64,000 nt of DNA. Source: Anaeromyxobacter sp. Fw109-5. Lineage in GTDB: Bacteria > Myxococcota > Myxococcia > Myxococcales > Anaeromyxobacteraceae. The position numbers and the translations under genes were made by a program. This document shows positions 43,079-44,714 of this stretch, piece after piece. Location of the stretch: contig NC_009675.1 in the NCBI RefSeq assembly GCF_000017505.1, forward strand, positions 2,356,001 to 2,420,000, given 5' to 3'. The notes beneath the pieces were generated by a model. That model had not been told where the DNA came from. It made no database searches and saw nothing but the letters and a program-made list of their open reading frames with translations. The first letter of the stretch is position 1. Each line of letters begins with the position of its first letter.

Positions 43079-44029
43079 ATGAACGATGTCATCCGAATCG
43101 GGATCGTCACCGCCTGGCCCGAGGACGATTGGCACAGCAAGCGGCTCGTCACCGCCTTCGCTCGCCACGGCGAGGCGGCGGTGATCGACCCGGCGGAGCT
43201 TTCGGCCATCGTGAGCGAGCAAGGCGTCGTCTCGGTGCGTGCTGCGGGTCTCGGGTCCGAGGCCTTCGACGCCTTCGTGCTCGCGCGCGGCATGGGTCGC
43301 ACCGGCGACGCCGACGTGCAGTTCGAGATCTACCGGGCGCTGGAGGATTCGGGGGCGGTGGTGGTGAACCGCATCGATCCGCTCCTCGCCGCCCAGGACA
43401 AGTTCCGGTCGTCCTGGCTGCTCGCGCGCGCCGGCGTGCCGACGCCTCCCGCCGCGGTCGCGCAGACCTCCGCCGGCGCGGCGGAAGCGCTCGCCGGGCT
43501 CGGCGAGGCGGTGATGAAGCCCATCGCGGGCTCGCTCGGCGAGGGGGTCCAGCGGGTGCGCGCGGACGCTCCAGGGCGGGCGTCGGCGCGGGAGCGGATC
43601 GCCCGCGACGGGGCGGTCTATCTACAGTCCTACGTTCCACACCCCGGACGCGACGTCCGGGTGTTCGTCGTCGGGGGAAGGGGCCGCGCCGCGATGGAGC
43701 GGTACGCGCCTCCCGGGGAGTGGCGCACGAACGTGTCCACCGGTGCTCGGGTCGAGGCAGTGCCGCTCGGGGCCGAGCTGGCGGCGGTGGCGGAGGCGGC
43801 GGCGGAGGCGATCGGGCTCGACTACGCAGGCATCGACCTGGCGGTCGGACCCGAGGGTCCCACCGTGATCGAGGTGAACGGGAACCCCAGCTGGCAGGGG
43901 ATCCTCGAGGCCACCGGCCTCGACATGGCGGAGGCGATCGCCGAGCACGTGCTCGGACGGGCGCTGCGCCGGCGCGGGGCCAGCGACCACATTGTTCCTG
44001 ATTGGACGACGGGGGCGACACATGGCTGA
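43079..44029 (+). CDS. RimK-type ATP-grasp ligase coupled to KGG-repeat proteins
   Basis: 316 aa. ATG 43079 is favoured over ATG 42989 because homology begins at IRIGIVTAWPEDD and purine-rich GGAAGGGGAAGGGAAG precedes it. ATP-grasp features: VMKPIAGSLGEGVQRV, LQSYVPHPGRDVRVFVVGG, YAGIDLAVGPEGP and the metal-binding IEVNGNPSWQGI. The RimK/MptN group joins a carboxylate to an amine through an acyl-phosphate, using proteins, cofactors or peptides as acceptors. Its last 8 nt (ATGGCTGA) overlap the start of the KGG-repeat gene, implying coupled translation. That protein is therefore a candidate substrate, by inference. Alternatively it acts on a pterin or small molecule. Confidence 0.85.
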   Translation: MNDVIRIGIVTAWPEDDWHSKRLVTAFARHGEAAVIDPAELSAIVSEQGVVSVRAAGLGSEAFDAFVLARGMGRTGDADVQFEIYRALEDSGAVVVNRIDPLLAAQDKFRSSWLLARAGVPTPPAAVAQTSAGAAEALAGLGEAVMKPIAGSLGEGVQRVRADAPGRASARERIARDGAVYLQSYVPHPGRDVRVFVVGGRGRAAMERYAPPGEWRTNVSTGARVEAVPLGAELAAVAEAAAEAIGLDYAGIDLAVGPEGPTVIEVNGNPSWQGILEATGLDMAEAIAEHVLGRALRRRGASDHIVPDWTTGATHG

Positions 44030-44414
44030 AGAGAAGAAGGGCGGCAGCAAGGGAGCGATGACGGTCTCTGAGGCCGGTCGCAAGGGTGGCGTGCGGGTCC
44101 GCGAGACGCGGGGTCGCAAGTTCTACGAGGAGATCGGCAAGAAGGGCGGCGAGACCGTGAAGGCCGAGCGGGGCCGCAAGTTCTACGAGGAGATCGGCAA
44201 GAAGGGCGGCGACACCGTCAAGGCGGAGCGCGGCCCTCGCTTCTACGAGGAGATCGGCAAGAAGGGCGGCGAGACGATCAAGGCCGAGCGCGGGACGCCC
44301 TTCTACGAGGAGATCGGCCGCAAGGGCGGCCACAAGGTCCGCGAGCTCATCGAGAAGGGGAAGGCGGGCGCGGAGGAGGATCTCGGCGCCGGCCACGGGG
44401 GCGGAGAGCGGTAA
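44022..44414 (+). CDS. KGG-repeat stress-type protein with 20-residue tandem repeats
   Basis: 130 aa from ATG 44022, inside the end of the ATP-grasp gene. Head: MAEEKKGGSKGAMTVSEAGR, including MTVSEAGRKGG. Then units of exactly 20 residues based on GRKFYEEIGKKGGETVKAER, three clear units and a fourth altered one (GTPFYEEIGRKGG) that runs into the tail KVRELIEKGK. The KGG motif is that of GsiB/Con-10/plant Em (LEA group 1) proteins: very hydrophilic, Cys-free, probably disordered, linked to desiccation or general stress. Neighbouring an ATP-grasp ligase, the repeats could instead be modification sites. DNA units share a 60-bp period. Confidence 0.85.
   Translation: MAEEKKGGSKGAMTVSEAGRKGGVRVRETRGRKFYEEIGKKGGETVKAERGRKFYEEIGKKGGDTVKAERGPRFYEEIGKKGGETIKAERGTPFYEEIGRKGGHKVRELIEKGKAGAEEDLGAGHGGGER
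44109..44348. repeat. 60-bp tandem repeats encoding KGG units
   Basis: Four in-register 60-bp units; TTCTACGAGGAGATCGGC recurs at 44120, 44180, 44240 and 44300. Differences are mostly synonymous or at three variable residues, and the last unit diverges most. Selection for the protein repeat with occasional unequal exchange is the likely origin. Confidence 0.93.
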
Positions 44415-44447
44415 CGCACCGACGAGGTGCTCTGGAGGGGGGACACG

Positions 44448-44642
44448 ATGGCGGACGAAGAGAAGAGCGCGCGGCGCGGTGAGCCGGAGGAAGGTCGCCG
44501 CGGGATGACGGTCTCCGAGGCGGGGCGCAAGGGCGGCATCGCCGTGCGGGACGAGCGAGGCCACGCGTTCTACGAGGAGATCGGCCGCAAGGGTGGGCAG
44601 AAGGTGCGGGAGCTCATCGAGCGCGGGAAGAACCGCGGCTAG
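44448..44642 (+). CDS. short single-unit KGG-repeat protein
   Basis: 64 aa, ATG 44448 after CTGGAGGGGGGACACG, a strong ribosome site. It shares the head MTVSEAGRKGG and the tail FYEEIGRKGGQKVRELIERG with the preceding gene but has no internal 20-residue repeats, i.e. head plus tail only. It lies 33 nt downstream and before a terminator, so all three genes form one unit. It is a paralogue, either a minimal stress protein or a second substrate for the ligase. Confidence 0.82.
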   Translation: MADEEKSARRGEPEEGRRGMTVSEAGRKGGIAVRDERGHAFYEEIGRKGGQKVRELIERGKNRG

Positions 44643-44675
44643 CTCCGCAATGGGCAGGCGGCGACGCCGCCAGAG

Positions 44676-44714
44676 GCGCCCGTCCGGGTCTTCCCGGGCG
44701 GGCGCGCTCGTTTT
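44676..44714 (+). terminator. intrinsic terminator closing the ATP-grasp/KGG operon
   Basis: A 13-bp stem (44676-44688 with 44693-44705, one G-T pair) around a TCTT loop is followed by GCTCG and TTTT at 44711-44714. It starts 33 nt after the stop of the second KGG gene. Confidence 0.8.

Follow-up and report, generated by a model that had tools for sequence, protein, structure and literature searches.

In Anaeromyxobacter sp. Fw109-5, a gene for a RimK-type ATP-grasp ligase stands directly before two genes for KGG-repeat proteins, and the same order of ligase and KGG genes was found at 24 of 24 loci of this ligase clade, 21 in five families of the order Myxococcales and three in the remote phylum UBP13. 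Such a layout is far beyond chance. Because the ligase always directly precedes KGG genes in two unrelated phyla, it probably modifies KGG proteins, and the comparison of loci strongly supports a functional coupling of these genes. We lean slightly towards reading the three genes of Fw109-5 as an operon for a modified hydrophilin, in which the ligase would extend carboxylates of the KGG repeats by an amino acid, probably glutamate. A limited search of open-access papers returned no earlier description of the pairing, which is weak evidence of absence.

The window, the whole stretch of 64,000 nucleotides that was analyzed, is part of a single chromosome of 5,277,990 bases. The block described here is encoded on the plus strand and sits between glnD and sua5, names that we assigned by eye from the translations. 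The ligase (316 aa, 43079..44029) carries a Pfam RimK domain (E 1.1e-25), and its catalytic residues are intact, as judged from orthologs, the alignment and an AlphaFold model with a pLDDT of 90. KGG1, the proposed substrate (130 aa, 44022..44414), starts inside the ligase stop region, ATGGCTGA, giving an overlap of 8 nt; the sequence-only reading of this DNA had reported this overlap, and the coordinates agree. Within the C-terminal codons of the ligase, a GGGGG at 44011..44015 is the probable ribosome-binding site of KGG1, judging from the sequence and from the way the junction is kept. KGG1 consists of a head and four 20-residue units, encoded by a 60-bp tandem repeat at 44108..44330 (period 60, 3.7 copies, 86% matches). 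The repeats had been called exact, which holds for the 20-residue period and not for the units, since these are only near-identical (GRKFYEEIGKKGGETVKAER, GRKFYEEIGKKGGDTVKAER, GPRFYEEIGKKGGETIKAER). Downstream follows KGG2, the head-plus-tail version noted earlier (64 aa, 44448..44642), a proposed second substrate that stands after KGG1 in all Anaeromyxobacteraceae loci. A terminator-like hairpin was found at 44676..44705, where an intrinsic terminator had been claimed; it is a plausible terminator and probable operon end, with one hairpin found against 0.5 expected by chance.

KGG and LEA-like proteins are widespread protectants, thought to act as unmodified disordered chains. KGG1 and KGG2 are by sequence ordinary members of the KGG/group 1 LEA-like hydrophilins (GsiB, YciG, plant Em), both scoring above the Pfam KGG (PF10685) cut-off of 20.4 bits, KGG1 with 40.7 bits and four units and KGG2 with 29.6 bits and two units; KGG1 also matches LEA_5. 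They differ from those proteins in being tied to a ligase and in the unusual invariance of the core. The same genome has a further 61-aa KGG gene of a plant-LEA-like type (GYSELGHKGG) at about position 1561430 of the chromosome (L121:5427-5612), and no ligase was seen beside it.

We searched 195 genomes of the phylum for orthologs of the ligase, and a single scan covered 84,980 species. High-scoring orthologs (E < 1e-53) occurred in five families of the order Myxococcales, and the species scan, besides weak matches, returned members only in Myxococcales and UBP13; it used two short peptide patterns, so that further members may be missed. Samples of 396 and 392 genomes from two other phyla contained no member of the clade; the best matches there reached 217 and 230 bits, full-length members scoring at least 357 bits. 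None was found on plasmids either, all matches there being below 60% identity and at most 39% among the matches listed. Each Myxococcales ligase with downstream DNA present was followed by one to five KGG genes on the same strand. At the 13 loci of Anaeromyxobacteraceae the first KGG gene always begins inside the ligase gene, by 8 nt in twelve and by 11 nt in one, and elsewhere in the order it begins 6 to 99 nt behind it. At one locus (L108) the ligase is split across two contigs and only its 3' end adjoins the KGG gene. In all three UBP13 genomes available, with a GC content of 0.49-0.54, the ligase is followed by a run of five or six KGG genes. In L129 (6096-7055), one of these genomes, the ligase frame continues into FYEETGHKGGRKVKKLIEEGKRALDEGR, a fusion at the ligase C-terminus that corresponds to the C-terminal half of a KGG gene standing separately in the two sister genomes. 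The fusion comes from a single, probably metagenome-assembled genome and may be a chance frame-joining deletion. At another UBP13 locus a divergent ClpP-like gene, recognized by eye, lies upstream of the ligase (L128:1651-2322).

By comparison, no KGG gene was found at 39 loci that carry another RimK-like gene (from the same phylum, paralogs of the window ligase, from other phyla, mch-linked or S6-type); a few of these loci had short flanks or overlapped. Fisher's test on the clade loci against these controls gave 6e-18, a value that overstates the pairing because related loci are not independent and some controls are short-flanked or overlapping. The setting of the pair varies, from glnD-sua5 in most Myxococcales families to icd- and murA-like genes in family f4 (L104), an adjoining nadC-like gene in family f8 (L106) and the UBP13 loci, and KGG is the sole neighbor common to all settings. 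The link between enzyme and repeats, which had been proposed from the layout of one locus together with a neighborhood survey as its check, thus gained support from this survey: in two phyla, in several settings and with one fusion, all orthologs found lie directly before KGG genes, which points to a functional link.

A shared operon need not mean that the two proteins act on each other. The ligase may instead produce a small protective molecule (for example a glutamyl dipeptide or some other glutamylated metabolite) and share its operon with KGG for a common stress response. We consider this unlikely, although it is consistent with the small products made by RimK-like and NAGGN-synthetase-like ATP-grasp enzymes, with a weak similarity of the ligase to NAGGN synthetase in the model search, with near relatives that act on cofactors and with KGG genes that work without the ligase. 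Against it, no second biosynthetic gene (acetyltransferase, amidotransferase or transporter) is kept beside the ligase, KGG being the only constant partner; a common stress role alone would not predict adjacency at every locus across phyla, and in L129 the ligase is fused to a KGG unit.

In a phylogeny built from 42 sequences, the KGG-linked ligases formed one group (support 84/94), which clustered with LysX and the mch-linked ligases as nearest non-KGG relatives and apart from S6-type RimK. The other RimK-like genes of the window genome fell away from this clade, one of them on the RimK side of the tree (L008). The protein scored above the cut-off of the RimK family alpha-L-glutamate ligase model TIGR00768 (169.9 versus 143.4 bits) and below those of S6-type RimK (PRK10446, 90.9 versus 331 bits) and LysX (141.6 versus 275.6 bits). 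The ATP-grasp of the GAK system (TIGR04356) was discarded as a candidate at 122 bits versus a cut-off of 300. Among solved folds, the nearest to the model were RimK (Z 30.5) and LysX/ArgX (Z about 29.5), which attach amino acids to proteins, and more distant ones were glutathione synthetase (Z 24.6), PsnB (23.9) and MdnB/C (20-22). By sequence, tree and fold, the ligase is a specialized branch of the RimK/LysX/MptN group.

Residues K108, K147, R194, N218, D253, E265 and N267, which serve ATP, metal and catalysis, are invariant in the clade and the same in RimK. Invariant or nearly invariant residues specific to the clade (A12, S20, D79, Q81 and Y85) are concentrated in the N-terminal part, which belongs to the region that holds the glutamate chain in RimK (PMC10092738). 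The chemistry therefore seems to be retained, and the acceptor site seems to have changed. The ligase resembles RimK in its fold, its catalytic residues and presumably the addition of an amino acid to a small protein, and differs from it in identity (26-28%), in its separate tree branch, in its KGG partner and in the N-terminal acceptor region, where the position of RimK Arg8 appears to be taken by Ala12. LysX/ArgX likewise place an amino acid on a small acidic partner protein, LysW; in contrast to LysW, KGG proteins do not end in a conserved Glu, and no gene of a lysine or arginine pathway lies beside the ligase.

The sequence-only reading had likened the locus to graspetide operons and had offered two chemistries, crosslinks and glutamylation, of which the latter is now the better supported. 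That the ligase makes internal lactam or ester crosslinks within the KGG repeats, in the manner of a graspetide synthetase, we regard as improbable. An ATP-grasp enzyme does adjoin a small repeat-bearing substrate, each KGG unit has a conserved Glu and Lys, and PsnB and MdnB/C belong to the same superfamily and share the fold (Z 20-24). The ligase nevertheless scored far below the cut-offs of the graspetide maturase models (TIGR04187, 47.1 versus 350 bits; TIGR04185, 16.9 versus 425 bits), and its fold is nearer to RimK and LysX/ArgX. Graspetide precursors are recognized by a conserved Ser/Thr and Asp/Glu in each core repeat, whereas the Thr of the ETVKAER repeat is A, S or T among the ligase genomes, which excludes ester rings as a general feature. 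We rejected membership in the graspetides on the combined evidence of model scores, tree, fold and the variable Ser/Thr, and the analogy with their operons is not supported.

A pterin or methylofuran-type cofactor as the acceptor, with KGG as a bystander, had been named earlier as the outcome that would refute a link to the repeats. MptN is the best NCBIfam match (NF040720, 206.5 bits), and ligases of mch operons are among the tree neighbors, including MyfB, which adds glutamates to methylofuran (PMC8141765). However, the MptN cut-off of 350 bits was not reached, residues specific to the KGG-linked clade differ from those of MptN and MyfB, and no mch or C1 genes were seen at the ligase loci. 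Furthermore, MCH, the marker of H4MPT, was absent from 9 of 9 ligase genomes tested, with control archaea positive; a methylofuran/H4MPT pathway is therefore not the reason for the ligase gene, and we rejected a cofactor ligase as the main reading, its probability being very low. Given the kinship with MyfB, glutamate is the most plausible candidate for the amino acid added to KGG.

In 13 genomes the ligases are only 62-86% identical to that of the window, and yet the 104-residue KGG1 core shows no or almost no differences; KGG1 is more conserved than the neighboring glnD, sua5, xerD, trpS and scpA. KGG1 also occurs, nearly as well conserved, in about 75 genomes of family f6 and in families f2, f3 and f5, in which the ligase was not found. 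This stability means that KGG1 has a role independent of the ligase and counts against a strict dependence on the enzyme; as KGG proteins also occur without the ligase, modification would be optional. It is barely credible that the pairing only reflects an ancestral arrangement around glnD and sua5 and has no functional meaning: in most Myxococcales KGG1 does lie there, whether or not the ligase is present, but the pair is kept in unrelated settings (f4, two f8 genomes, UBP13) with varied spacing and changing neighbors. The AlphaFold model of KGG1 (pLDDT 48) has no confident fold and was too poor to use; a protein without confident predicted fold is thus more conserved than its housekeeping neighbors, with or without ligase. 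In the ligase-free family f6 (L085, L086, L087), a small conserved gene and then two membrane genes separate KGG1 from sua5. The two membrane genes resemble cation antiporters and may be a further link to stress. Right behind the ligase in families f9 (L102:6982-7479, L107:7315-7644) and f4 (L104:7155-7424), the KGG gene encodes a Lys/Ala-rich N-terminal tail like that of histone H1, hinting that some KGG proteins may bind DNA.

For glutamylation of KGG, the leading candidate for the acceptor is the second Glu of FYEEIG. In the ligase genomes this residue never varies in units 2-4, and some units of the ligase-free families have Q, A, T or S in its place. The correlation with the ligase (5/6 versus 0/4 groups, p = 0.048 uncorrected) is a post hoc one, drawn from inspection of all columns over only ten groups, and family f4 breaks it in unit 1. 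The C-termini of the KGG proteins vary freely, which argues against a C-terminal acceptor, and C-terminal glutamylation as on S6 was therefore not favored. In the reaction that we propose, the ligase would bind ATP and convert a carboxylate to an acyl phosphate, which would then react with the amine of a free amino acid, glutamate being the most likely one. This carboxylate would most likely belong to a side chain of the KGG unit and less likely to the C-terminus. Each KGG protein would gain negatively charged branches that may alter its hydration or binding under stress. A broader form of this idea is that one enzyme is dedicated to a disordered, desiccation-type hydrophilin and modifies each of its repeats, through glutamate chains that branch from an internal Glu, as in tubulin, or through crosslinks within the protein; this is possible, though doubtful.

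The enzyme itself belongs to the RimK family; the system is a novel variant, in which a protein ligase appears to serve a hydrophilin specifically. If such a ligase is indeed tied to KGG proteins in two phyla, some KGG/LEA-like proteins would be enzymatically modified and protein glutamylation would extend to a new class of targets, with the ligase and its KGG proteins as a ready enzyme-substrate pair for testing. Modification of every repeat, if true, would turn them into switchable stress proteins of bacteria, with an enzyme controlling their charge or shape.
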